Origin: an uncultured Eggerthellaceae bacterium
GTDB taxonomy: Bacteria; Actinomycetota; Coriobacteriia; Coriobacteriales; Eggerthellaceae
Direction: 5' to 3'
DNA: 64,000 bases
Assembly (NCBI GenBank): GCA_944320405.1
Contig: CALUHI010000007.1
Coordinates: 1 to 64,000 of the forward strand
Below, in pieces: positions 2,858 through 18,590 of the stretch. The stretch's first letter is position 1. Each line of letters begins with the position of its first letter. Position numbers and translations under genes: made by a program. Under the pieces are notes generated by a model, which was given only the letters and a program-made list of their open reading frames with translations, did not search any database and was not told where the DNA came from.

Positions 2858-4353
2858 GATGGATCTGCCTCCCTCACGCGGAATGCCAGCGCCTCGCATA
2901 AATGGGCTCTGCCCACATGGGACGCTTCTTCCATATCGGCCGCCGTGCGCGCAACCGCCAGCGTCCGCATAATGGCGCGGCCGCTCATGCGCATGCGTTG
3001 TGCTGCCTGTTCGTAGAACTGCGCATCCGCCTCGGAAAGCCCGCATTCCTGCACGATCGACGCGGCGCTTCCGCCTTCGCTGTCCTGCCGCGCATGGCGC
3101 CACGATGCGTATTCGCGGGCGCGCATGACCGCCTCGCGCAGCTTCTCTGACGAGGTCCCGCTTCCGGTAGCGAGAACCTCACCTGGAGCGATGCGACGCA
3201 CATCGATATGCAGGTCGATGCGGTCCATCAACGGCCCTCCGATACGACCACGGTAAGCGCGCATTTGCGCAAGCCCGCATGTGCAAGTCCGTTCGTCATC
3301 GCCGTAGTAACCACAAGGACACGGGTTCGACGCGGCAACCAACATGAAGCGTGCGGGAAACGCCACGTTTCCATCCGCGCGGGTGATGACCACCCTCCCT
3401 GATTCCAATGGCTGCCGCAGCGCCTGGAGCGTTGACGGTTTGAACTCGGCCAGCTCGTCCAAGAACAGCACACCGTTGTGCGCAAGCGATATCTCACCAG
3501 GTCGCGGGGGCGATCCCCCTCCTACAAGCCCCGCTGCAGATGCCGTATGATGCGGGCTGCGGAACGGGCGGATTCCTGCGAACGCAGGAGCAGGGTCCTC
3601 GCCAGCGACCGAATGGATGAGCGCCGTCTGAAGCGCTTCATCGGGCGTCAGCGGCGGCAAGATGGAGGGCAGGCGCGACGCGAGCATCGTCTTGCCCGAA
3701 CCCGGCGGTCCCATCATCAGAACGCCATGCCCGCCTGCAGCAGCTATCTGAAGCGCCCGTTTGGCCATCTCGTGCCCCGCGATGTCGGCGAAATCGGCAG
3801 CAGCGTGCGCAGCCTCGGCCAGAACGAAACGCCCTTCCTCGAAATCGCCCCGTCGAAACGACGACAACGACGGTGCGGCGAGCTGCCGCGTTCCCTCCAC
3901 CTTCACAATGCCGCCGTCAGGAGCCCCGCATACGACGTCCATTCCCCTATCGCGCGCGCAGATCGCGTACGCCAAAGCGCCTGCTACCGGCCGCACAGCA
4001 CCCTCAAGGGAAAGCTCTCCGACCAGCAAGCGGCCCCGAGCATGACGTGCGTCAATCTGCTTCGTGGCGATGAGCAGCCCCACTGCGATGGGCAGGTCGA
4101 ACCCCGATCCCGTCTTCTTGAGGGAACCGGGCGCCAGATTCACCACCACACGCTCGTTGGGCATCGAGAACCCGCTCGCACGAATGGCCGCGCGCACGCG
4201 CTCGCGCGATTCCTGGATGGCGGCATCGGGCATTCCCACGATGAAAAATCCGGGCATGCCGTTGCCCACCACCACTTCCACTTCTACGGGCACAGCCTCC
4301 ACCCCGCGCAGGGTGGCAGCATGCACCACGCATTGCCCCGCCATGGCACTCAC
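2854..4353 (-). CDS. comM: YifB/ComM-type Mg-chelatase-like AAA+ ATPase
   Basis: This 499-residue protein has the ComM layout: an N-terminal Lon-protease-like fold (about 1-170), a Mg-chelatase-type AAA+ core with Walker A GPPGSGKT at about 214-221, and a C-terminal helical lid. The zinc-type cysteines CPCGYYGDDERTCTCG are typical of the family. ComM is a helicase that promotes branch migration of transformed DNA in competent species. A GTG at 4353 overlaps the yraN stop (GTGA). An ATG three codons later, at 4344, is an equally possible start. Confidence 0.93.
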   Translation of the reverse strand: MSAMAGQCVVHAATLRGVEAVPVEVEVVVGNGMPGFFIVGMPDAAIQESRERVRAAIRASGFSMPNERVVVNLAPGSLKKTGSGFDLPIAVGLLIATKQIDARHARGRLLVGELSLEGAVRPVAGALAYAICARDRGMDVVCGAPDGGIVKVEGTRQLAAPSLSSFRRGDFEEGRFVLAEAAHAAADFADIAGHEMAKRALQIAAAGGHGVLMMGPPGSGKTMLASRLPSILPPLTPDEALQTALIHSVAGEDPAPAFAGIRPFRSPHHTASAAGLVGGGSPPRPGEISLAHNGVLFLDELAEFKPSTLQALRQPLESGRVVITRADGNVAFPARFMLVAASNPCPCGYYGDDERTCTCGLAQMRAYRGRIGGPLMDRIDLHIDVRRIAPGEVLATGSGTSSEKLREAVMRAREYASWRHARQDSEGGSAASIVQECGLSEADAQFYEQAAQRMRMSGRAIMRTLAVARTAADMEEASHVGRAHLCEALAFRVREADPS

Positions 4354-4865
4354 CCTGCAGCGAACGCATTGATGTGATGGCGCAGCATGGCACGGTTTTC
4401 TGCCACCACCACAAGCGACACCACATCGAAGCGCACTGGCACGTCAACCACGTCGTATTGCGCGAGGAAAAGCGCCGCGATCTTTTCGTATTTGCTGCGT
4501 TTGCGCCTGTCCACCGCTTCAGAAGGGAACCCTTTGTCGATGCTCGTGCGCGTTTTGACTTCCACGAACACCACCCAGTCGCCATCGCGCGCGATGATGT
4601 CGGCTTCGCCCGCAGCGCAGGTCCAATTGCGTTCCAAGATCTCGTAGCCGTGGCGGTACAAAAACCGCGCGGCGGCGTCTTCGCCGCGTCGGCCAAGCTC
4701 GGCGTTGAGCTCCCCGCGCTTTTTCTCTTCGCAGGGCGCGGAAGGCTCAGGCTCCTCCACGCCAAGCGGAGGTGTTGCAGAAAGGGATTGGGATTGGGAT
4801 TGGGATTCGGTTTGGGCTGATGAGGAGTCGGGTAACTCCCGAGCAGCAGCGACGTCGTCCATCAT
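4350..4865 (-). CDS. yraN: UPF0102 (YraN) family nuclease-fold protein with N-terminal extension
   Basis: The last 115 residues are a YraN/UPF0102 domain: GRRGEDAAARFL, then the restriction-endonuclease-like core GEADIIARDGDWVVFVEVKTR with D, E and K in the usual order. The function is unknown; members are linked to recombination genes. The start ATG at 4865 (first of two ATGs) follows AAAGGAG at good spacing and gives 171 residues. About 50 residues precede the domain, which is longer than usual. They include a Ser-Gln repeat encoded by four copies of the hexamer GGGATT at 4784-4807. The extension looks disordered, and copy changes there would keep frame. Confidence 0.85.
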   Translation of the reverse strand: MMDDVAAARELPDSSSAQTESQSQSQSLSATPPLGVEEPEPSAPCEEKKRGELNAELGRRGEDAAARFLYRHGYEILERNWTCAAGEADIIARDGDWVVFVEVKTRTSIDKGFPSEAVDRRKRSKYEKIAALFLAQYDVVDVPVRFDVVSLVVVAENRAMLRHHINAFAAG

Positions 4866-5042
4866 GGCGACCACTCCTTTCGTGAGGGTGGCCGCATCGT
4901 AGCAACGTGCTCCAACGCGCAGAACGTCGCGGCGTCGTCGCATTTGCACCTGCTTCGTACGCAAGGTCAACGCGAAACTGGCCCGTTTCCAACGCAGATC
5001 CAGCGCGCATTGCTTACAAATGCCGCACGCAAAGGAAAATCT

Positions 5043-5831
5043 TTAGAAAAGGGACTGCTGGGCAAACGAGGTGCAGAAGCTCGCGCGATGCACGGGGGTC
5101 AAGCCACGCTGTTTGATGGCTTCGACATGATCGGCGCTCGCGTAGCCCTTGTTCGACGCGAACCCGTATCCGGGGTACTGCGCGTCCAAACGCTCCATCA
5201 GCGCATCTCGCTCAACCTTCGCCACGATGGAAGCTGCAGCGATGGAAGCGCAGCGGGCGTCTCCCTTCACCAGATTGCATTCGCGCTCGTCAAGATGCAA
5301 GGGATTGCCATCCAGAAGGATAAGCCCCGGGCGAACGCCCGCCTCCTCGATCTTGCGCACTGCCGCCGAAAACGCGCGCCGCAGACAAGCTGACATCCCC
5401 AGCGTGTCGATATCATGGGGGCTTGCGTACTCCACTGCCCAGGCCAGCGCCACCCGCTTCACTTCTGCGGCAATGCGCTCGCGTTCGGCAGGGGCCACCT
5501 GCTTGGAGTCGTTGAGACCCGCAATGCGCGGCTCGCGCGGCAGCACCACCGCGCCCACAGCAAGCGGCCCCGCCACCGGTCCGCGCCCCACTTCGTCAAG
5601 ACCCACGCACAAGGATGCCCCACGCTCTTCCATCAAGCGTTCTTCCAGCGCATAAAGCCCGTCGAGTCGCTCGCGCTCGGCGCGTTCAGCGGCAAGACGG
5701 CGGCGCGCAACCTCCACCGCGCTGCGCACGCCCTTGCGCGCATCTGCCACGAGCGAGCGCTCCAGTACGGCGAATTCCTGCTCGTCAGCCTCTTGCAGCC
5801 TGCGCTTGATCTCTGCGACGGTCGTACCCAC
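5043..5831 (-). CDS. rnhB: Ribonuclease HII
   Basis: RNase HII nicks at ribonucleotides misincorporated in DNA. The catalytic core is plain: DEVGRGPVAGPLAVGAVVLP carries the first acidic pair, and ILLDGNPL and KGDARCASIAAASIVAK carry later motifs. An N-terminal helical region of about 80 residues (TVAEIKRRLQ) precedes the core, as in Bacillus RnhB. The start is uncertain. A TTG at 5852 falls inside the T-tract of the rplS terminator. I prefer the GTG at 5831, which follows AGAGGGG; another GTG lies at 5840. Confidence 0.9.
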   Translation of the reverse strand: MGTTVAEIKRRLQEADEQEFAVLERSLVADARKGVRSAVEVARRRLAAERAERERLDGLYALEERLMEERGASLCVGLDEVGRGPVAGPLAVGAVVLPREPRIAGLNDSKQVAPAERERIAAEVKRVALAWAVEYASPHDIDTLGMSACLRRAFSAAVRKIEEAGVRPGLILLDGNPLHLDERECNLVKGDARCASIAAASIVAKVERDALMERLDAQYPGYGFASNKGYASADHVEAIKQRGLTPVHRASFCTSFAQQSLF

Positions 5832-5850
5832 GACTTGCACCCCTCTGCTC

Positions 5851-5890
5851 AAAACACGAAAACCCCTCGCCTGCCACGGCAGACGAGGGG
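5851..5890 (-). terminator. Rho-independent terminator of rplS
   Basis: On the minus strand a GC-rich stem (7 bp CCCCTCG/CGAGGGG, then a 5 bp inner stem, 5863-5890) is followed by TTTTCGTGTTTT. It lies 52 bases past the rplS stop and just before rnhB. Confidence 0.85.
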
Positions 5891-5941
5891 TGCTTCACGC
5901 TGCATCGGCACCTGATGCGGTGCCCGCATAGAAGGAAAGGC

Positions 5942-6289
5942 CTAGCGGAAGGACTTTTCCTTGATCTTGGCGGCCTTGCCCACCTTGTCGCGCAGGTAGT
6001 ACAGCTTGGCGCGACGGACATCGCCCTGGCGCACGACCTCGAGCTTGTCGATCTTGGGAGAGTGCACGGGGAACGTGCGCTCCACGCCCACGGAGAAGCT
6101 CACCTTGCGAACGGTGAAGGTCTCACGGGCACCCTCCCCGTGACGGCGGATGACGTCGCCCTGGAAGACCTGGATGCGCTCGCGGTTGCCCTCGGTGATG
6201 CGGTAGTGCACCTTCACGTTGTCGCCCACGTGAAACTCGGGGATGTCGCTCTTGATCTGCTGCTGCTCGATGGCGCGAATGATATCCAT
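5942..6289 (-). CDS. rplS: 50S ribosomal protein L19
   Basis: L19 sits at the interface between the 30S and 50S subunits. The 115-residue product has the normal length and family sequence: [13 protein letters not shown] at the start, [12 protein letters not shown], the FQGDVI and FTVRKVS stretches, and the C-terminal AKLYYLRD. The ATG at 6289 follows AGAAGGA. It is flanked by its own candidate promoter and terminator, so it is probably a single-gene unit. The usual trmD and rimM neighbours are absent. It ends in TAG. Confidence 0.98.
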
Positions 6290-6351
6290 TGTCCTGTTCC
6301 TTCTATCCTTACATCAACGCATTCGTTGTACGGTTAAAGACGCGATTGGAT

Positions 6352-6380
6352 AGTTTATCGCCTTTGTTCCTATTGCGCAA
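6352..6380 (-). promoter_or_regulatory. Candidate sigma-70 promoter of rplS
   Basis: On the minus strand TTGCGC and TAAACT are separated by 17 bases. The predicted transcript would have a leader of about 55 bases. The -35 match is weak, so this is inference from spacing and position. Confidence 0.4.
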
Positions 6381-6495
6381 GAAGATTCACGCGAGATATT
6401 CGGCAAATCCGGCGAAATCGGGCTGCCCTCCATGCAATGCCCAGAATTCACGCCTTCATGCGCAATCTGCACCCGCCGAAACGGCCGCAACACGC

Positions 6496-6819
6496 CTAGA
6501 TGAGCGTGAGAAGCGCGTACGCGGTAACGCCCGTGACGGCACTCCACAGAAGCGATTTCGACTTCCACGCCACCAGCACCACGGCAAGCGAGGCCACAAG
6601 CGGAGCCGCGGCAGGCCACAAACCCGCATCGAACATCCCCGGCGTTAGAAGGTCGTTTGCCACCAGCGCGGCGAACGCGGCAGGCGGAATGTAGCCCAAG
6701 GCGCGCTCGACGCCCTCAGGCAGGCTGCGGCCCTTCAGCGCGAACAGCGGAGCCACGCGGCAGATGAGCATGGTGATCGCGCAGCTGACGAACACGATAA
6801 GGAAGTCGCCCCAGCTCAT
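6496..6819 (-). CDS. azlD: AzlD-family branched-chain amino-acid exporter small subunit
   Basis: This 107-residue, very hydrophobic protein has about four membrane segments and matches the AzlD family (start MSWGDFLIVFVSCAITMLI, then CRVAPLFALKGRSLPEGVERALGYIPPA). AzlD works with AzlC to export branched-chain amino acids and analogues. The ATG at 6819 overlaps the azlC stop (ATGA), so the two subunits are translationally coupled. It ends in TAG. Confidence 0.92.
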   Translation of the reverse strand: MSWGDFLIVFVSCAITMLICRVAPLFALKGRSLPEGVERALGYIPPAAFAALVANDLLTPGMFDAGLWPAAAPLVASLAVVLVAWKSKSLLWSAVTGVTAYALLTLI

Positions 6820-7517
6820 GCGCAGTCGCCCCCTTTCGCCCTCAGCGCGCGGTTGGCGAGCATTGCCGCAACCACGCCAGCGATCGCGCCCGCCAAGATG
6901 GCCGGTCCAGTCAGGCCCGCAAGCTTGCACAAAAACACGCCCACCATGGCCACCACGGCGGCAACGACGTTTTCGATGGAGATCTTCTGAGTGACCAGAA
7001 GGCAGATGAAGATGGAGGTCATGGCGAACGACGCGATGGAAAGCGGAATACCCACGGCGCTTCCCACCAACACGCCCACAACGTTGGAAATGGTCCAGGA
7101 GCTGTTGGAGAAGATGTTCACCCACAGCGCGCGATCCACACTCCACCCGCCTTCTTCGAAACGGGCGGTGTTCACGCCGTAGCTCTCGTCGGTCACCGAA
7201 GCGGCGAACAAAAACGACAGGCGCTTGCTGACAGCCGCGCAACGCGGCGCAAACGAAGCGGCGTAAAGCATCTGACGCGTGTTCACCAGCGACACGCTGG
7301 CAATGATGGAGGCGATAGGCGCGCCGGCAAGCCACATGTTGGGAATCATGAACTGGCCCGCACCCGAGTAGAACAGCACGGACATGATGAGCACCTGCAA
7401 GGGCCCAAGCCCAATGGAATCGCACAGGATGCCGCACGGGATGCCAATAGCAACATAGCCCAGCATGATGGGCACCGCGGCATGGAAGGCTTCTTTTATG
7501 TGGCTTCTCGTAGGCAT
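6816..7517 (-). CDS. azlC: AzlC-family branched-chain amino-acid exporter large subunit
   Basis: This 233-residue membrane protein has the AzlC pattern: an N-terminal stretch AFHAAVPIMLGYVAIGIPCG, then GAGQFMI, NTRQMLYAASFAP and the ASVTDESYG motif. It should form the exporter with AzlD in the inner membrane. The ATG at 7517 has no good Shine-Dalgarno. A TATAAT lies only 10 bases upstream, so the mRNA may be leaderless or nearly so. Confidence 0.93.
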   Translation of the reverse strand: MPTRSHIKEAFHAAVPIMLGYVAIGIPCGILCDSIGLGPLQVLIMSVLFYSGAGQFMIPNMWLAGAPIASIIASVSLVNTRQMLYAASFAPRCAAVSKRLSFLFAASVTDESYGVNTARFEEGGWSVDRALWVNIFSNSSWTISNVVGVLVGSAVGIPLSIASFAMTSIFICLLVTQKISIENVVAAVVAMVGVFLCKLAGLTGPAILAGAIAGVVAAMLANRALRAKGGDCA

Positions 7518-7526
7518 AGCCTGACG

Positions 7527-7532
7527 ATTATA
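7527..7532 (-). promoter_or_regulatory. Candidate -10 box for a near-leaderless azlC mRNA
   Basis: On the minus strand a perfect TATAAT ends 9 bases before the azlC ATG. No convincing -35 hexamer is seen at 16-18 bases. If used, transcription would start within a few bases of the start codon. Confidence 0.35.
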
Positions 7533-7616
7533 GCCGTTCTCCCCCGCGTTCAGAGCAAAGATTCCCCGCGCCTACAACACCTGCGGAAGACGGTGGAAAG
7601 CCGCCATTATTCAAAC

Positions 7617-10487: not shown

Positions 10488-11160
10488 GTTTCCGTCTCGA
10501 ACAAGGAAACAGAGCAATCGCTTCTTTCTGGAACCGGGCCAGCAAGATCGATACCAGTTCAGACTCCAAGTAAAACGCGTCTTTTGGGAACCAGGTCGGC
10601 TGCGTTCGCTGCCATTATTTCACTGAAGTACGCTGGCTTCCGCCGGCGCTGTTGGGTGAACAATAGCGAAACGGAAGCGTTTTCCCTGGCCATTGGCTCC
10701 TTTGGGATCCTAACCCGCCGAAAAACACGCATCTTGCGTCAAGAGCAGCGCCGCGCGCGGATAGGTTCAGCGTACTTCGGTGATTTTCCGGCATCGAGCC
10801 GCTTGGACTCGGGCCATCCAGGGTGCGAAAGAGGTTAATCGGCCAAAACATAACGGGATGAACGTCGATATTATCACCTTGCAGAGCGTGATAGATAAGG
10901 ACCGAAGCGCACGCAGGGCTTTAGCAATTGCAAGTGTGACAGAAGAGCACAAACACACGGAGAATTAACAGCAAGGCGGCTTACGCGCGCCTTGAGCGAA
11001 AGCAACCCCTTGGCAACGGATGACCTGCGACCCCGTTGAACGCTGCCGAAAGGGCTACCATAGACCAAGTCCAACGTTTGCATGCGCAATCGCGACGGCG
11101 CGGCGCACTCGCCCACGCCCCATCCCCATGAAACAGCGGAACCCAGAAGGAGGGCGCACT
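10488..11160. other. Intergenic region upstream of the glutaredoxin gene
   Basis: This 673-base stretch carries repeat copy B (10603-10825). The remaining 335 bases before the glutaredoxin gene contain no supported gene. A TTGAAC at about 11037 could be a -35 box for the glutaredoxin gene, but no good -10 follows it at standard spacing. Confidence 0.6.
10603..10825. repeat. Structured intergenic repeat, copy B
   Basis: This is the second copy of the block at 8950-9172, in the same orientation. It has the arms TCACTGAAGTACGCT (10620-10634) and AGCGTACTTCGGTGA (10769-10783), the inner hairpin GCTGGC/GCCGGC and the shared GCGTTTTCCCTGG. It lies on the other side of the DUF559-like gene. Confidence 0.75.
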
Positions 11161-11409
11161 ATGGCTTATCTCGAGAACCATCAGCTGTACTACAAGAAAT
11201 CATGCCCGTTTTGCCAGAAGGTGCTGCGTTTCATGGACGAGCACAAGATCACGATGGACACCCGCGACACCCTCCAGCCCGGCTATCAGAACGATCTCGT
11301 GCGCATTGGCGGCAAAAAGCAAGTCCCCTGCCTGGTGATCAACGGCAAGGCCCTCTACGAATCCGACGACATCATCGCGTATCTGAAGGAGAATTTCGTA
11401 GAGGCGTAA
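11161..11409 (+). CDS. Glutaredoxin-like protein
   Basis: This 82-residue single-domain protein has a thioredoxin fold. The redox motif CPFC is at residues 16-19, the cis-proline in KQVPCLVING and the glutathione-site-like ESDDIIAYL near the end. It probably reduces disulfides or mixed disulfides in the cytoplasm. A strong AGGAGG precedes the ATG at 11161. It stands alone on the plus strand with a bidirectional terminator after it. Confidence 0.92.
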   Translation: MAYLENHQLYYKKSCPFCQKVLRFMDEHKITMDTRDTLQPGYQNDLVRIGGKKQVPCLVINGKALYESDDIIAYLKENFVEA

Positions 11410-11515: not shown

Positions 11516-14017
11516 CTAGAACTTGGCGAAGCGCTCGTGGCGCTTGGCGATGAGCTCCTCGGAGGTCGCATTCTCAAGCTCGTCGAGCGCCTGGCGCACG
11601 TAAGACGCCACGTTGGCAGCCGCTTGCTCGGGGTTCTCGTGAGCAGGGCCGTCGCCTTCGCTGAGCACATCGTCGATGATGCCCATGCGGGCCACGTCCT
11701 CGGCACCCATGCGCATGACGGCCGCCGCCTCACCAGCGCGCGTGCGGTCCTTCCACAGGATGGAGGCGAAACCCTCAGGCGAAAGCACCGAGTACACCGC
11801 GTGCTCCTGCATGGCCACCTTGTCGGCCAGCGCCATCGCCAGCGCGCCGCCAGATCCACCTTCGCCCAAAAGCACGCTCACCACGGGAACGCGCAAACCG
11901 GCAAGCTCGAACAGGTTGTCGGCGATGGCGTTGCCCTGGCCGCGTTCCTCGGCCTCGGTGCCGCAGAACGCGCCCTGGGTGTCCACCAAGCACACGACCG
12001 GACGATTGAACTTCTGCGCCTGGCGCATCAGGCGGATGGTCTTGCGGTAGCCCTCCGGCTGCGGGCAGCCGAAGTTGCGGCGGATGCGCTCCTTCAGGTC
12101 GGTGCCCTTCTCCTGCGCAAGGATGGTCACCGGACGGCCGGCTATCCAACCGATGCCGCCCACGATGGCGCCGTCATCGCCAAATGCACGGTCGCCGTGC
12201 AGCTCGATGAAGCCGTCCACCATGTGATTGATGTACGTGAGCGACGTGGGACGATGCGTGTTGCGTGCCAGCTGCACGTGGTTCCACGCCTCCTGCGCTG
12301 CATCGGCGGTAGGAACGTGGGACTGCTCGGCAGGGCTGGCCTCGCCCAGAAGCGATCCGTCCTCGGCGTTGAAGCCGCCGGCAGCCACCGCGCGCTCAAT
12401 GCGCTTGTCGGCCGACGAACCCCCGAACAACGGGAACGCGAAGCGGGGCTTTTCCGCGGGCTCGGCAGGAAGCTCCACCAGGAACAGGCCGTAGGTGATG
12501 GAGTTGTAAGTGCCGGTGCCTTCTTCCAGGTTCGCGCGCACCGAGTCGTAGTCCACGATAAGCGCACGGTCGCCCGGCTTGGGGTCGGCAGGCAAGCAGG
12601 CGGACGCGTGCAGCGCCAACAAATGCGCCAAACGCGCGCGAAGCTCCTCACGCGGCACAACGGCATCGATCAAGCCGTGCTGCAGCGCGAACTCTGCGGT
12701 CTGGAAGCCTTCGGGAAGCTCTTGCTTGATGGTGTCGCGGATGACGCGCTGGCCGGCGAAGCCGATGAGCGCCTTGGGCTCCGACAGAATGATGTCGCCC
12801 TGCATGGCAAACGATGCAGTCACACCACCCGTGGTGGGATCGGTGTGCACCACGATGTAGAGCAGCCCCGCCGCGCTGTGGCGTTCAACCGCGCACGACA
12901 CCTTCGCCATCTGCATGAGGGACATCAGGCCCTCCTGCATGCGGGCACCGCCCGACGCGGTAAAGATAACTACCGGCAGGCGCTCCTCGGTGGCACGGTC
13001 GAACAGACGCGAAACGCGCTCACCCACCACGGTGCCCATGGAGCCCATCAAGAACGTGGAGTCCATCACGCCGAGCGCCAGCTTCAGGCCCGCGATGGAG
13101 CCCGAACCCGTGCGAACCGCTTCCTCCAGGCACGTCTTTTCGCGCAGCGACTCGATCTTCTCGAGATAGCCCGGGAATTCCAGCGGATCGCGCTCCACCA
13201 GGCCCATGTCCCATTCTTCAAAGGTACCCGCATCCAGCAAGTCGGCGATGCGCTCGTCGGAAGTCATGCGGAAGTAGCCGCCGCACTGGGGGCACACGTA
13301 ATGGCCGGCCGCCAGGCCCGCGCCATCGAACGTCAGGCCGCAATGGCGGCAGACGCGCCAGTCCTCTTCGTCGGGAACCGTACGCTCGGTGGTGCACAGC
13401 ACCCACCCGAACCCGATGGGATCATCCGACATCGGCTTGAACACGCGCACGCCGCGCTTCTCGGCGCGGGCGAGGAAGATGTCCACGTCGGCCAAGGGAA
13501 GCGCCTCCCCCGCCAAAAGGATGGTGGTCGCGCCGCATTCGCGCGCAGCCTCAAGCACCGCGTATCCGTTGCAGAACAGGTCGTCGGAATAGCGCTCGCC
13601 CAGATTGACTGTACCATCGGCGTCGCGCAGGTTCAGGTCGAAGCGCTTCTCCTTGGTGAGCGGCGCCCAGACCGAAAAGCCCGACTCCTTCGCATCGACG
13701 ATGAGGTCGCGCGCCAGCTTGCCACGCGCCATCACCAGCACGCGGGGACGCAGGTCGGCCGCCTCCTCGGTGTCGTCGGGAACCGCCTTGGCAGCAACCT
13801 GCTTCTCGAGGTACTCCGACACGTTGGACGCATCCACCGCGTTGGGCGCGGCGGCCTTGCCGAACGCCTCCTGCGCCAAACGCGACAGGCGGTACGCCAC
13901 GCCGGAAGGCTCCATGGCCTCCTGAGCGGGCTCTGCCGCAACGGGCGCCGACTCTTCCTCGGAGACGAAGTGGCCCTCGGCCGAGAAGGTGATGTAGTCT
14001 TGCTTCTTGGGTTTCAT
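11516..14017 (-). CDS. accDA: Fused acetyl-CoA carboxylase carboxyltransferase (AccD-AccA) with biotin-carboxylase-like N-terminal remnant
   Basis: This 833-residue protein joins both carboxyltransferase subunits, which transfer CO2 from carboxybiotin to acetyl-CoA. Residues 223-245 form the AccD zinc ribbon (CRHC and CPQC). AccD follows to about 500, with the FTASGGARMQEG and HTDPTTGGVTASFA runs. AccA covers about 560-820 (FIELHGDRAFGDD, PEGYRKTIRLM, GEGGSGGALA). Residues 91-195 look like a degenerate biotin-carboxylase N-terminal domain (PRVLVMARGKLARDLI matches the ANRGEIA region) with no ATP-grasp after it. It is the last gene of the fab cluster; accB and accC are absent here. Confidence 0.93.
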   Translation of the reverse strand: MKPKKQDYITFSAEGHFVSEEESAPVAAEPAQEAMEPSGVAYRLSRLAQEAFGKAAAPNAVDASNVSEYLEKQVAAKAVPDDTEEAADLRPRVLVMARGKLARDLIVDAKESGFSVWAPLTKEKRFDLNLRDADGTVNLGERYSDDLFCNGYAVLEAARECGATTILLAGEALPLADVDIFLARAEKRGVRVFKPMSDDPIGFGWVLCTTERTVPDEEDWRVCRHCGLTFDGAGLAAGHYVCPQCGGYFRMTSDERIADLLDAGTFEEWDMGLVERDPLEFPGYLEKIESLREKTCLEEAVRTGSGSIAGLKLALGVMDSTFLMGSMGTVVGERVSRLFDRATEERLPVVIFTASGGARMQEGLMSLMQMAKVSCAVERHSAAGLLYIVVHTDPTTGGVTASFAMQGDIILSEPKALIGFAGQRVIRDTIKQELPEGFQTAEFALQHGLIDAVVPREELRARLAHLLALHASACLPADPKPGDRALIVDYDSVRANLEEGTGTYNSITYGLFLVELPAEPAEKPRFAFPLFGGSSADKRIERAVAAGGFNAEDGSLLGEASPAEQSHVPTADAAQEAWNHVQLARNTHRPTSLTYINHMVDGFIELHGDRAFGDDGAIVGGIGWIAGRPVTILAQEKGTDLKERIRRNFGCPQPEGYRKTIRLMRQAQKFNRPVVCLVDTQGAFCGTEAEERGQGNAIADNLFELAGLRVPVVSVLLGEGGSGGALAMALADKVAMQEHAVYSVLSPEGFASILWKDRTRAGEAAAVMRMGAEDVARMGIIDDVLSEGDGPAHENPEQAAANVASYVRQALDELENATSEELIAKRHERFAKF

Positions 14018-14055: not shown

Positions 14056-14517
14056 CTAGGCGTTCTGCGTGTCCTTGGCGCTTGCCAAAACGTATTTTTG
14101 CGTGGCGGATGCGCACAGCTGGCCATCGACGCTAGCCTCGACCTCGGCCACGCACAGGCGCGAAGACGCCTTCACGATGGTCGCCTTGAGATCGAGCGTC
14201 TCGCCCGGGGCCACCTGGCGACGGAACTTCGCTTTGTCGATGCCCGTCAGAAAGCCAAGCGCGCCCTCGGCGCCGCGGTCCACCAGCAGGCAGAACGATG
14301 CGGCCTGCGCGAGCGCCTCCATGATGATAACGCCCGGCAGCACCGGATGCTCGGGGAAATGGCCCTTGAACAGCGAAAGCTCGGGGTCGACGTCAAGCTG
14401 GGCATGGATGGAAACGCCCGGCTCGCACGCAACAACGCGCGTGACCCACACGAACGGATCGCGATGCGGCAGAACCGCCTCCACCGCATCTTTCCCACAA
14501 GGATAGGTGAAATCCAT
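14056..14517 (-). CDS. fabZ: 3-hydroxyacyl-ACP dehydratase FabZ
   Basis: FabZ removes water from 3-hydroxyacyl-ACP in fatty-acid elongation. The 153-residue hot-dog-fold protein shows LPHRDPFVWVTRV near the start, GHFPEHPVLPGVIIMEALAQ with the catalytic His, and the Glu of the active-site helix. The ATG at 14517 lies 3 bases after the fabF stop. It ends in TAG, with 38 bases before accDA. Start and length are normal for the family. Confidence 0.96.
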   Translation of the reverse strand: MDFTYPCGKDAVEAVLPHRDPFVWVTRVVACEPGVSIHAQLDVDPELSLFKGHFPEHPVLPGVIIMEALAQAASFCLLVDRGAEGALGFLTGIDKAKFRRQVAPGETLDLKATIVKASSRLCVAEVEASVDGQLCASATQKYVLASAKDTQNA

Positions 14518-14520
14518 GAT

Positions 14521-15843
14521 CTACTCCTCGAACGGCGAAATTGCCAGACATGCATTGTGTCCGCCAAAGCCCAGGCTGTTGGACAGGGCGACCTTCTGCC
14601 TGTAGCCGGAGATCGGCTCGGTTGCCACCGCGACGGCGCAATCCGGGTCGGGTTCGGCGAAGCCGCAAGTGGGAGGCACGCAATCGTTGGCAACGGAAAG
14701 CGCCGTGATGATGGCCTCCAGCGCGCCGGCAGCACCCAGCGTGTGGCCGATGGAGCCCTTGACCGAGGTCACGGGAACCTTCGAGCCAGCCTCTTCGCCG
14801 CACAGGGCGATGAGCGCGTGAGATTCAGTGGAGTCATTGGCCGGGGTGCCAGTGCCATGGGCGTTCAGATGACCCAGGTCAGCAGGCGTGAACCCGCCTT
14901 CTGCCAGCGCCTGCTCCATGGCGCGGCGGATGCCTTCGCCATCGGGAGACGGCGCCGTCATGTGGTAGGCGTCGCCCGTCACGCCGTAGCCAGTGATCTC
15001 GGCCACGATGTTGGCACCGCGCGCCAACGCGTGCTCAAGCGACTCGAGCACAACCGCGCCCGCGCCCTCACCGGCAACGAAGCCCGCACGACGCGCGTCA
15101 AACGGCAGCGAGGCGCACTGCGGATCCTCGGCCTTGGTGAGCGCACTCAGGTTGGTGAAGCCCGCGATGCAAATGGGAGAAATGCTCTCCTCGGTGCCAC
15201 CTGCCAGCGCCACGTCGGTGTAGCCGTGGCGGATGTCACGCAGCGCGGTGCCGATGCTGTTGGCACCTGTGGCACACGCCGTCACGATGTCGAGGCACTC
15301 GCCCTTCATCCCGTAGCGGATGGCCAGCGTACCTGCAGCGATGTTGCCGATCATCGTGGGAACGAACAGCGGGTTCACGCGCTTGGGGCCTTTCTCCAAA
15401 AGCGTGGTGAAACCGCTTTGCAGCTCATCGATGCCGCCGATGCCCGAGCCGAACAGGATGGACACGCGGGTGGGGTCTTCATCCTCCATGTTCAGGCCCG
15501 CCATCTCGATTGCCTCGTCAGACGCAGCGATGGCGTACTGCACGAAGCGCTCGAAGCGACGCGCTTCCTTCTTGGTCATGCCGTGCTCAACAGGGTCGAA
15601 CCCGCGCACCTCGGCAGCATTGTGCACATCGTAGTCGGTCGTGTCGAAGCGCTCGATAGGGCCGATGCAGCACTTCTTGCCGTACACGGCGTCCCACAGC
15701 GCCGGAATGCCGACACCCGCCGGCGAAACCGCGCCCATGCCCGTGATGACCACGCGGTGCGTGCCATCGGGGCGGCGCGTCTGGATGCTGCTGGGATCCG
15801 CAGGCGCGGTGCCCGTCAGATTGAATGCGGTTTGCTCGCTCAT
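14521..15843 (-). CDS. fabF: 3-oxoacyl-ACP synthase II FabF
   Basis: FabF condenses malonyl-ACP with acyl-ACP. The 440-residue thiolase-fold protein has VVITGMGAVSPAG at about residue 30, the nucleophile region DIVTACATGANSIG, and the two catalytic histidines in NAHGTGTPAND and VKGSIGHTLGAAG. The ATG at 15843 overlaps the fabG stop (ATGA). About 25 residues precede the usual start, a slightly long N terminus. Confidence 0.96.
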   Translation of the reverse strand: MSEQTAFNLTGTAPADPSSIQTRRPDGTHRVVITGMGAVSPAGVGIPALWDAVYGKKCCIGPIERFDTTDYDVHNAAEVRGFDPVEHGMTKKEARRFERFVQYAIAASDEAIEMAGLNMEDEDPTRVSILFGSGIGGIDELQSGFTTLLEKGPKRVNPLFVPTMIGNIAAGTLAIRYGMKGECLDIVTACATGANSIGTALRDIRHGYTDVALAGGTEESISPICIAGFTNLSALTKAEDPQCASLPFDARRAGFVAGEGAGAVVLESLEHALARGANIVAEITGYGVTGDAYHMTAPSPDGEGIRRAMEQALAEGGFTPADLGHLNAHGTGTPANDSTESHALIALCGEEAGSKVPVTSVKGSIGHTLGAAGALEAIITALSVANDCVPPTCGFAEPDPDCAVAVATEPISGYRQKVALSNSLGFGGHNACLAISPFEE

Positions 15844-16610
15844 AGCGACATACCTCCGTCGATGCAGATGACCTGTCCAGTAATGTAGCCGGAACCTTCG
15901 CTTGCCAGGAAGCGGACCAGCGCCGCCACCTCTTCCGCCGTGCCGAAGCGCTTTGCGGCGATGCGCTCGCCGATGGCCGCGCGCTGCTTTTCAGAAAGCG
16001 CATCGGTCATGTCGGTTTCGATGAATCCGGGCGCAACGGCGTTGCAGGTGATGTTGCGGCCTGCCAGCTCACGCGCGATGGACTTCGTCAGGCCGATCAC
16101 GCCCGCCTTCGAGGCCGCGTAGTTCGCCTGACCAGCATTGCCGGACACGCCCACCACGCTGCTCATGTTGACGATGCGGCCGTAACGCTGCTTCATCATG
16201 CGCTGAGCGGCAGCGCGGCAGCAATTGAACGTGCCCTTCAGGTTCACGCCGATGACCGCGTCGAAGTCCTCGTCCTTCATGCGGGCAAGCAGCCCGTCAC
16301 GAGTGATGCCGGCGTTGTTCACCAGCACGTCGATGCGGCCGAACTCCTCAAACGCCGCCTCGATCAGGTCTTTCGCCTGATCCGGATCGGCCACGTTCGC
16401 CACGCGAGCGATGGCTTTCACGCCATGGGCGGCAGAAAGCTCCTCGGCCAGGGCGGTGACAGCCTCAAGGCCCGATTCACTGGAGCAGTTGACGCACACG
16501 TCGTAGCCGGCACCCGCCAGTTTCTCGGCGATGGCGCGGCCGATGCCGCGGCTCGAGCCGGTAACGACTGCCGCGCGACGCGGCTTTTGGGTTTCGGTGC
16601 TAGCAGCCAT
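15840..16610 (-). CDS. fabG: 3-oxoacyl-ACP reductase FabG
   Basis: FabG is an NADPH-dependent short-chain dehydrogenase that reduces 3-oxoacyl-ACP. The 256-residue protein has the cofactor motif TGSSRGIGRAIA at about 17-28, NNAGITRDGLL, the catalytic Ser in NMSSVVGVSG, and YAASKAG carrying Tyr and Lys. The TGA stop is shared with the fabF start. Only 3 bases separate it from fabD upstream. Confidence 0.97.
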   Translation of the reverse strand: MAASTETQKPRRAAVVTGSSRGIGRAIAEKLAGAGYDVCVNCSSESGLEAVTALAEELSAAHGVKAIARVANVADPDQAKDLIEAAFEEFGRIDVLVNNAGITRDGLLARMKDEDFDAVIGVNLKGTFNCCRAAAQRMMKQRYGRIVNMSSVVGVSGNAGQANYAASKAGVIGLTKSIARELAGRNITCNAVAPGFIETDMTDALSEKQRAAIGERIAAKRFGTAEEVAALVRFLASEGSGYITGQVICIDGGMSL

Positions 16611-16613
16611 CGG

Positions 16614-17591
16614 CTACTCCCTTCCCGCTGCGCCGTAGGTTTCGACGCAGGCGTTGAAGCTGGATTCGTTTTGGACGCATTCGCGCGGAAGCTCCTTGTC
16701 GATGCGCTTGACAAGGTTTGCCAGCACGCCGCCGAAGCCCACCTCGACAAATGCGCCAGCGCCGGCATCCGCCAGGTTGCGCACGCACTGCACGAAACGC
16801 ACCGGATGCGTCATCTGAAGCGCCAGGTGCTCGCGGGCAGCTGCCGCGCTCAGCGGTGCGGCGTCCACGTTGCAGATAAGCGGAATGCGCGGCTCGGAGA
16901 ACGACACGCCTTCCATATAAGCGGCCAGGCCCTCGGCGGCCTCGGCCATCAGCGGGCTGTGGAACGCGCCGGAGGTCTTCAAGCGCGATGCGCGCTTGCC
17001 CATGGCGGCCCACTCTTCCTCGGCGCGCGCGATGGCCTCGAGCTCGCCAGAGATGACCACCTGGCCAGGGCTGTTGTAGTTCGCCGGAACAAGCACCTGA
17101 CCCTGGGCGCAGCGCTCGCAGAGCTCCTCGACCTCTTCGTCGGTGCCCTTGAGCAGCGCGCTCATGGCGCCGGGGTGTGCATCGGCGGCCTCGGCCATAA
17201 GATCGGTGCGGCGGCGAACCAGGGCAAACGTCTCTTCGTCAGAAAGCATGCCTGCAACAGCAAGCGCACCGATCTGCCCCAGCGAAAAGCCCAGCACAGC
17301 AGCCGGGTTCACACCGCGCGCTTCAAGCGCATGCGCAATGCCCACCGAAAGCGCGCACAGCGCCGGCTGCGCGAAGCGCGTGTCGTTGATGCGCTCGGCA
17401 TCATCGGAGCACACGAGGTCGGCCACGTCGAAGCCAAACGCCTTGGAAGCGCACTCAAACGCCGCAGCGACCTCGGGAACGCCCAGAAGGTCGGCGCCCA
17501 TGCCTGGCTTCTGCGACCCCTGGCCCGACAGCATGAACACGATGCCGCCGGAAGGAAGCGAAAGGGAGGTGCCCATCGTGGAATCGGCCAT
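16614..17591 (-). CDS. fabD: Malonyl-CoA:ACP transacylase FabD
   Basis: FabD loads malonate onto ACP. The 325-residue protein shows FMLSGQGSQKPGMG near residue 20, the nucleophilic serine in LGFSLGQIGAL at about 100-110, the histidine in SGAFHSPLM, and NVDAAPLSAA near the C terminus. The ATG at 17591 lies 12 bases after fabK. It ends in TAG. Confidence 0.96.
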   Translation of the reverse strand: MADSTMGTSLSLPSGGIVFMLSGQGSQKPGMGADLLGVPEVAAAFECASKAFGFDVADLVCSDDAERINDTRFAQPALCALSVGIAHALEARGVNPAAVLGFSLGQIGALAVAGMLSDEETFALVRRRTDLMAEAADAHPGAMSALLKGTDEEVEELCERCAQGQVLVPANYNSPGQVVISGELEAIARAEEEWAAMGKRASRLKTSGAFHSPLMAEAAEGLAAYMEGVSFSEPRIPLICNVDAAPLSAAAAREHLALQMTHPVRFVQCVRNLADAGAGAFVEVGFGGVLANLVKRIDKELPRECVQNESSFNACVETYGAAGRE

Positions 17592-17603
17592 GGCGGCGCT
17601 CCC

Positions 17604-18590
17604 CTATTCCGCCGCGCCAGCGAGCATGCGCCCGCCGCGCGCGTTCAGCGCCGCGACCTCTTCGAGGTTCAGGCCGCACAGGGCCTCGGCCTCGGAGATG
17701 ATCTCGTCGATGACGTCTTTGGCCGTTTTGCGCTCGCGCACGAGTGCGGCGATCTGGCCAGCCATCATGGAGCCGTTGTCCACGTCGCCCTCGACCGCAC
17801 GGCGCAGGCTGCCCAGATACATCTGCTCGAGCTCATCGCCGTTCTTGGCCATGTCGGCCTCGAGCGAGCGAACCTTGCGCGAGAACTTGTTCTTCAGGCA
17901 GCGTGCCGGATGACCGCTGCCGCGACCGGTGACGATGGTGTCGGAGTCCTTGGCGGCCAGGACGCGCTCCTTGTACGCATCGGCCACGGTGCACTCCTCG
18001 ACCGTCAGGAAACGGGTGCCCATCTGCACACCCTCGGCGCCCAGCATGAACGTAGCGGCGAACCCGCGGCCGTCAGCCACACCGCCCGCGCCGATCACGG
18101 GAATGGAGACCGCTTCACGCACCGACGGCAAAAGCGCCATGGTGGTGAGCTCGCCCACATGACCGCCCGACTCGGTGCCCTCGGCAACGATGGCGTCGGC
18201 GCCCAGGCGCTCCATGCGCACGGCAAGCGCCGTGGAAGCGACAACCGGAATCACCTTGATGCCGGCTTCCTTCCACATCTCCATGTAGTTGGCGGGGCTG
18301 CCAGCGCCCGTGGTGACCACGTCCACCTTCAGCTCGCACAGAAGCTTTGCCAGCTCACCTGCGTTGGGGTCCATCAGCATCACGTTCGCGCCGATGGGCT
18401 TCTTCGTGATTTCGCGCGCCTGACGCACCTGGTTCTCCACCCAGTCGAGCGGGGCGCCACCGCAGGCAATGATGCCCAGACCGCCCGCTTCGCTGACCGC
18501 GCCGGCCAGGCTTGCGTTGGCGATGCGCGCCATTGCGCCCTGGATGATGGGCACCTCGATGCCCAGGAGCTCCGTGACCCTCGTCTTCAT
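17604..18590 (-). CDS. fabK: Enoyl-ACP reductase II FabK (FMN-dependent)
   Basis: FabK catalyses the last reduction of each elongation cycle and replaces FabI, so it usually confers triclosan resistance. The 328-residue TIM-barrel flavoprotein has VPIIQGAMARIANASLAGAVS at its start, the FMN-site run VAEGTESGGHVGE, and VIGAGGVADGRG. It has the size and position of FabK in the Streptococcus/Clostridium fab cluster, which is why I prefer it to a 2-nitropropane dioxygenase. Confidence 0.93.
   Translation of the reverse strand: MKTRVTELLGIEVPIIQGAMARIANASLAGAVSEAGGLGIIACGGAPLDWVENQVRQAREITKKPIGANVMLMDPNAGELAKLLCELKVDVVTTGAGSPANYMEMWKEAGIKVIPVVASTALAVRMERLGADAIVAEGTESGGHVGELTTMALLPSVREAVSIPVIGAGGVADGRGFAATFMLGAEGVQMGTRFLTVEECTVADAYKERVLAAKDSDTIVTGRGSGHPARCLKNKFSRKVRSLEADMAKNGDELEQMYLGSLRRAVEGDVDNGSMMAGQIAALVRERKTAKDVIDEIISEAEALCGLNLEEVAALNARGGRMLAGAAE

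Follow-up and report, generated by a model that had tools for sequence, protein, structure and literature searches.

A biotin-carboxylase N-terminal domain apparently lodged inside the AccD part of a fused acetyl-CoA carboxyltransferase in Eggerthellaceae

We found that the AccD-AccA fusion protein (AccDA) encoded in a 64,000-nucleotide stretch of DNA from an uncultured Eggerthellaceae bacterium (contig CALUHI010000007.1; hereafter the window) carries a genuine biotin-carboxylase (BC) N-terminal domain at residues ~89–197, as confirmed by profile and fold comparisons. The domain appears to lie inside AccD, between its N-terminal tail and its zinc ribbon, and is predicted to be non-catalytic. 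We regard it as an evenly balanced proposition that this dead BC domain has been kept as an assembly or docking module, serving a carboxyltransferase that is an orphan and takes its BC and its carrier from elsewhere. An earlier note on this DNA had pointed to positions 13433–13747, which indeed translate to residues 91–195 of the 833-residue ORF (14017..11516). The features of the ORF and of the surrounding gene cluster are:

11516..14017, minus strand: AccD-AccA fusion ORF, 833 aa, with the BC_N-like domain apparently inside the AccD part; relatives share the architecture
13976..14017, minus strand: AccD N-terminal tail motif MKPKKQDYITFSAE of the KxxYITI type, residues 1–14 (matches AccDs without the domain; shuffle test)
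13754..13975, minus strand: variable extension, predicted to be disordered, residues 15–88 (alignment; low pLDDT)
within 13754..13975, minus strand: conserved short helix VAYRLSRLAQEA, residues 40–51 (alignment)
13427..13753, minus strand: BC N-terminal-like domain, predicted to be non-catalytic, residues 89–197 (PF00289; PDB profile search; AF2; fold searches)
13394..13408, minus strand: conserved strand GWVLC, residues 204–208 (alignment; AF2 model)
13283..13360, minus strand: AccD zinc ribbon CxxC...CPxC, residues 220–245 (invariant columns)
12602..13390, minus strand: AccD (carboxyltransferase beta) region, residues 210–472 (TIGR00515)
11519..12292, minus strand: AccA (carboxyltransferase alpha) region, residues 576–833 (PRK05724/TIGR00513)
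14056–14517, minus strand: fabZ, directly upstream of accDA
14521–15843, minus strand: fabF, directly upstream of fabZ-accDA
15840..18590, minus strand: fabG, fabD and fabK, of the same fatty-acid synthesis cluster; order conserved in relatives

Both carboxyltransferase regions scored above the cut-offs of their models, namely the AccD equivalog TIGR00515 (332.1 bits vs 317.45) and, for the AccA region, PRK05724 (368.3 bits vs 357) and the equivalog TIGR00513 (344.7 vs 319.3 bits). The zinc-ribbon cysteines begin at residue 223, where the earlier note had set the start of the ribbon, and occupy invariant columns of the alignment. The GWVLC strand, with its invariant Trp205, links the BC_N-like domain to the ribbon. 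Residues 1–87 showed an AF2 pLDDT below 50, which we read as disorder. Two motifs, VAYRLxRxAxEA and APNAxDAxxxSEY, are conserved in the disordered N-terminal extension (window 13754–13900, residues 40–88) and are possible short linear binding motifs. The cluster runs fabK-fabD-fabG-fabF-fabZ-accDA on the minus strand from 18590 to 11516, with accDA last; as had been noted before, neither accB nor accC is found between fabF, fabZ and accDA in the window. A glutaredoxin-like ORF (11020–11409, plus strand) is convergent with accDA.

The earlier observation that residues 91–195 resemble the pre-ATP-grasp domain of AccC was borne out. The Pfam family PF00289 (Biotin_carb_N) matched residues 92–167, with 27.1 bits in the scan of the bacterium's own genome, 26.2 for the N-terminal piece of the protein and 27.9 for the isolated domain (gathering score 25.5), while the scan of the full-length protein gave 23.3 bits, below the gathering score. 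The match stops at profile position 79 of 110, and the C-terminal half of the domain diverges. Among 22 homologous domains aligned from relatives, 19 matched PF00289 and no other Pfam family. A profile built from this alignment and searched against PDB sequences returned biotin-dependent carboxylase chains as the first 48 listed (best E 1.5e-9), with the first unrelated chain at E 0.28. Furthermore, an AF2 model of residues 86–215, computed from three sequences only with no AccC among them (pLDDT 82.3, pTM 0.81), matched BC N-domains: all 50 matches listed by Foldseek and all 50 listed by VIA-align were biotin-dependent carboxylases, and the matches listed had E values of about 1e-7 to 1e-6 and Z scores of 13.7–14.5, respectively. 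The domain thus shares with the AccC N-domain the fold, the length of about 105 residues and the core motifs (RGxxA helix, VxxG turn, N-capped helix).

Unlike AccC, AccDA has neither the ATP-grasp nor the C-terminal domain; the profile scans of the protein reported no ATP-grasp family, in agreement with the earlier reading, and the AccD zinc ribbon follows the N-domain. The HPGYG motif (H79-P-G-Y82-G83), invariant in all 44 AccCs compared, was present in none of the 22 fusion domains. Since no ATP-grasp follows and this motif is gone, the domain is predicted not to be catalytic. Likewise, E12, invariant in AccC, is replaced by K or R in 20 of 22 fusion domains. The family keeps the residues of the fold core (G25, V49, G52, N62 and L85 in E. 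coli-like numbering) and conserves new family-specific residues (K12, D/E35, R/K37). Of the residues of the BC dimer interface, R19 is found in few or none, R16 in eight of the 22, and position 23 is acidic in 14. With R16, R19 and E23 only partly retained, we do not claim that the domain simply mimics an AccC protomer or dimer, and the same partial retention speaks against docking. Taken together, the surface changes (E12 to K/R, loss of R19, D35, R/K37) are as would be expected of a new interface, not of a catalytic remnant.

We also considered a regulatory ligand-binding domain, in which the pre-ATP-grasp fold would sense a nucleotide or acyl-CoA and tune the carboxyltransferase. In single-chain pyruvate carboxylases, the adenine of acetyl-CoA contacts the BC N-domain around residue 45–47 (PMC5059739), and the new basic patch of the fusion domains (K12, R/K37) would fit such a role; yet the domain holds no recognisable ligand motif and the fold match shows no ligand, and we judge this explanation improbable indeed.

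The N-termini of the fusion proteins bear on how the domain came to be there. In many of them a KxxYITI motif stands three to four residues after a start codon (MKPKKQDYITF here). AccDs that lack the domain usually start with such a tail, as in streptococci (MALFSKKDKYIRI) and in G049 (MFPRKKYIEISPAQ), a sister genome in whose AccD the canonical tail runs directly into the zinc ribbon with no domain in between. Against a matrix derived solely from AccDs that lack the domain, 17 of 32 fusion N-termini scored above their own shuffles (p < 0.05), although the sequences are related and the tests not independent. The tail motif precedes the domain, which places the latter, to all appearance, inside AccD, flanked by the tail and the zinc ribbon; such a position favours insertion or recombination as its origin.

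The earlier note had instead proposed an in-frame deletion that fused the 5' end of accC directly to accD in an ancestral accB-fabZ-accC-accD-accA cluster. The ancestral order that it cited is real: fabF-accB-fabZ-accC-accD-accA is intact in G044, and accB-fabZ-accC-accD-accA is present in G047 as far as the contig reaches. Moreover, the domain ends near an AccC domain boundary, fabZ lies directly upstream of accDA as it does of accC, and Asn62, invariant in the fusion domains, is shared with 23 of 44 AccCs, mostly fab-linked, pxp-linked and firmicute ones. Nevertheless, a direct fusion would have put the start of AccC first, whereas the fusions begin with the AccD tail, and it is the presence of this tail upstream of the domain that disfavours the deletion. 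In G049, furthermore, the cluster lacks accB and accC, yet the tail joins the ribbon directly. Nor could a donor class be singled out: HMMs of PycB-linked, pxp-linked, fab-linked and firmicute AccC N-domains scored the fusion domains alike (mean 17.7–19.9 bits). We consider a simple deletion unlikely. As most PycB-linked AccCs carry Val at position 62, Asn62 weakly suggests a donor of the ACC type rather than a PycB-linked AccC.

To map the spread of the domain, we searched 299 sampled genomes of the order with the domain profile and found it in 73 (E ≤ 1.2e-13), almost always in ORFs of 750–1000 aa, while the next matches (E ≥ 6e-11) were mostly ordinary AccCs of ~450 aa. Eggerthellaceae, the family of the window, account for most of the 73 (named loci include Enteroscipio rubneri L093 and Adlercreutzia L086); the remainder come from two further families of the order, with AccDAs that branch within the Eggerthellaceae sequences in the tree. 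When the architecture was sought outside the order in 396 genomes of the phylum (E ≤ 1e-8), it was found in Eggerthellaceae only; the matches in other families were BC-sized or larger ORFs, seemingly genuine BCs as judged by ORF length. In a tree of AccD plus AccA, all domain-bearing proteins formed one clade (support 83) with G049 as its sister (support 85), and the domain in AccDA has a single origin. It is under purifying selection, with dN/dS ratios of 0.11–0.36 in eight NG86 comparisons, rough values with dS near saturation in some pairs. L94, G113, L147, N150 and A157 were invariant among the 22 aligned domains. Because of this single origin, the occurrence in 73 of 299 genomes and a dN/dS well below 1, the term "relic", used in the earlier note, is misleading. 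A tolerated passenger, i.e. a functionless structured insertion kept only since its removal would destabilise the fused protein, would account for a domain dN roughly double the value of the catalytic parts (NG86), for the strong divergence of some members (L020, L021) and for G049, which does without the domain. Retention in 73 species or more is harder to reconcile with a passenger, as are the invariant core positions of the 22 aligned members, the low dN/dS and the family-specific conservation of K12, D35 and R/K37, and we hold this explanation to be fairly improbable.

We then turned to the partners that a carboxyltransferase without linked accB and accC would need. The earlier note had suggested that accB, accC and birA be sought elsewhere in the genome, and they were found there: one full AccC, one biotinyl domain and one match to the biotin-protein-ligase family. 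The only biotinyl domain is a full AccB (TIGR00531, 162.6 bits vs 115.2) that makes up the C-terminal part of a fusion with a PycB-type 5S carboxyltransferase (PRK09282, 733 bits vs 402), and AccC follows directly (TIGR00514, 677 vs 626.5). This genome is a draft (92.8% complete), so that the lack of a second accB or accC rests also on the more complete genomes G001 and G002 and the closed genome G030. The PycB-AccB fusion was intact in 65 of the 69 domain-bearing genomes searched, with fragments only in the other four. By coordinates, none of the 69 had an AccB match on the accDA contig at a distance of 20 kb or less, nor was an accC linked to accDA; about half of them, including the closed G030, had no other AccB above the family cut-off. 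Second accB-accC pairs in relatives followed PxpC in eleven of eleven loci tested, with D-glutamate cyclase or PxpA on the other side in nine within the stretch of DNA covered, and we rejected a free pair as a dedicated ACC operon, since the pairs examined sit in 5-oxoprolinase clusters. Conversely, the clusters that keep accC (G019, G044, G047 and G059, with accB-accC adjoining accD-accA in G059 and G019) showed no BC_N domain. Genomes without accDA (G004, G009, G012) retain PycB-AccB and AccC; the module therefore presumably has a job of its own, pyruvate carboxylation.

These findings suggest how the enzyme might be supplied. The accDA lineage would have lost its dedicated accB and accC, leaving an orphan acetyl-CoA carboxyltransferase that would borrow BC and carrier from other carboxylases; the BC-like domain would recruit it to the borrowed AccC/PycB-AccB module, where the carboxybiotin made could also be delivered to acetyl-CoA. 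Both the docking of AccDA through its BC-like domain and its sharing of the AccB and AccC in the cell are inferred. A docking module for AccC/AccB encoded elsewhere had been the second half of the earlier proposal and seems the better one, the more so since the genome's sole AccB turned out to be joined to a subunit of pyruvate carboxylase. More specifically, and tentatively, one BC and one PycB-tethered AccB may serve two carboxyltransferases, yielding oxaloacetate and malonyl-CoA, with the domain in AccD as a docking handle into the pyruvate-carboxylase complex. In G049 (L070), an orphan accDA without the BC domain ends a fabK-D-G-F-Z-accDA cluster and the only AccB is PycB-AccB, which means that borrowing does not strictly require the domain, unless G049 has lost it. 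This genome is the key comparison for deciding between a gain of the domain after G049 branched off and a loss in G049.

Fusions among ACC genes are well documented (PMC11077971, PMC3199775), and components combine in varied ways, as in the BC-BCCP fusion of Chloroflexus (PMC11077971) and, by its PDB title, the AccADCB chain of PDB 9kkm. However, Chloroflexus BC1 is a full, active BC, while AccDA keeps only what appears to be a dead N-domain, located within a carboxyltransferase. The own-genome PycB-AccB resembles two-subunit pyruvate carboxylase, in which a 5S-type carboxyltransferase with a C-terminal biotinyl domain adjoins a separate BC, but its biotinyl part is a full AccB equivalog (TIGR00531) instead of a PycB-type carrier and is the only AccB available to AccDA as well. 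A functional analogy that we infer is offered by BADC of plants, which is a paralogue of an ACC component but not itself catalytic, and is reported to act as assembly "glue" (PMC11926652); BADC is a separate, BCCP-derived protein, whereas in AccDA the carboxyltransferase itself incorporates a piece of BC. In the literature searched, we found no description of an AccD that contains a BC N-domain and none of a PycB-tethered AccB as the only carrier for AccDA. If true, the arrangement would represent a new ACC architecture, in which a dead piece of one subunit is built into another, and would link anaplerosis to lipid synthesis by way of a single carrier. Fatty-acid synthesis in this lineage seems to rely on pyruvate carboxylase for its biotin module, a reading that accounts for the seeming lack of accB and accC in accDA clusters. 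It would also provide a clear genetic and biochemical test of mutual recognition among heteromeric ACC subunits.

Some further loci deserve mention. At L078 (G000:C30), a full-length AccB (TIGR00531) sits on the C-terminus of a PycB/OadA-like 5S carboxyltransferase (5662–7566, minus strand), followed by AccC (4310–5665, minus strand) and an Asp23-like gene; the PycB-AccB/AccC locus is conserved across the order. In Eggerthellaceae, accB-accC was also seen inside a 5-oxoprolinase-type cluster of PxpB-PxpC, D-Glu cyclase and PxpA (L174:5098-12296, also L074 and L080). Finally, one relative (L172, G256:C1:574000-593000) displayed a partial tandem duplication of fabF-fabZ-accDA, one copy ending inside AccA and the other lacking most of AccD, which may be an assembly artefact.
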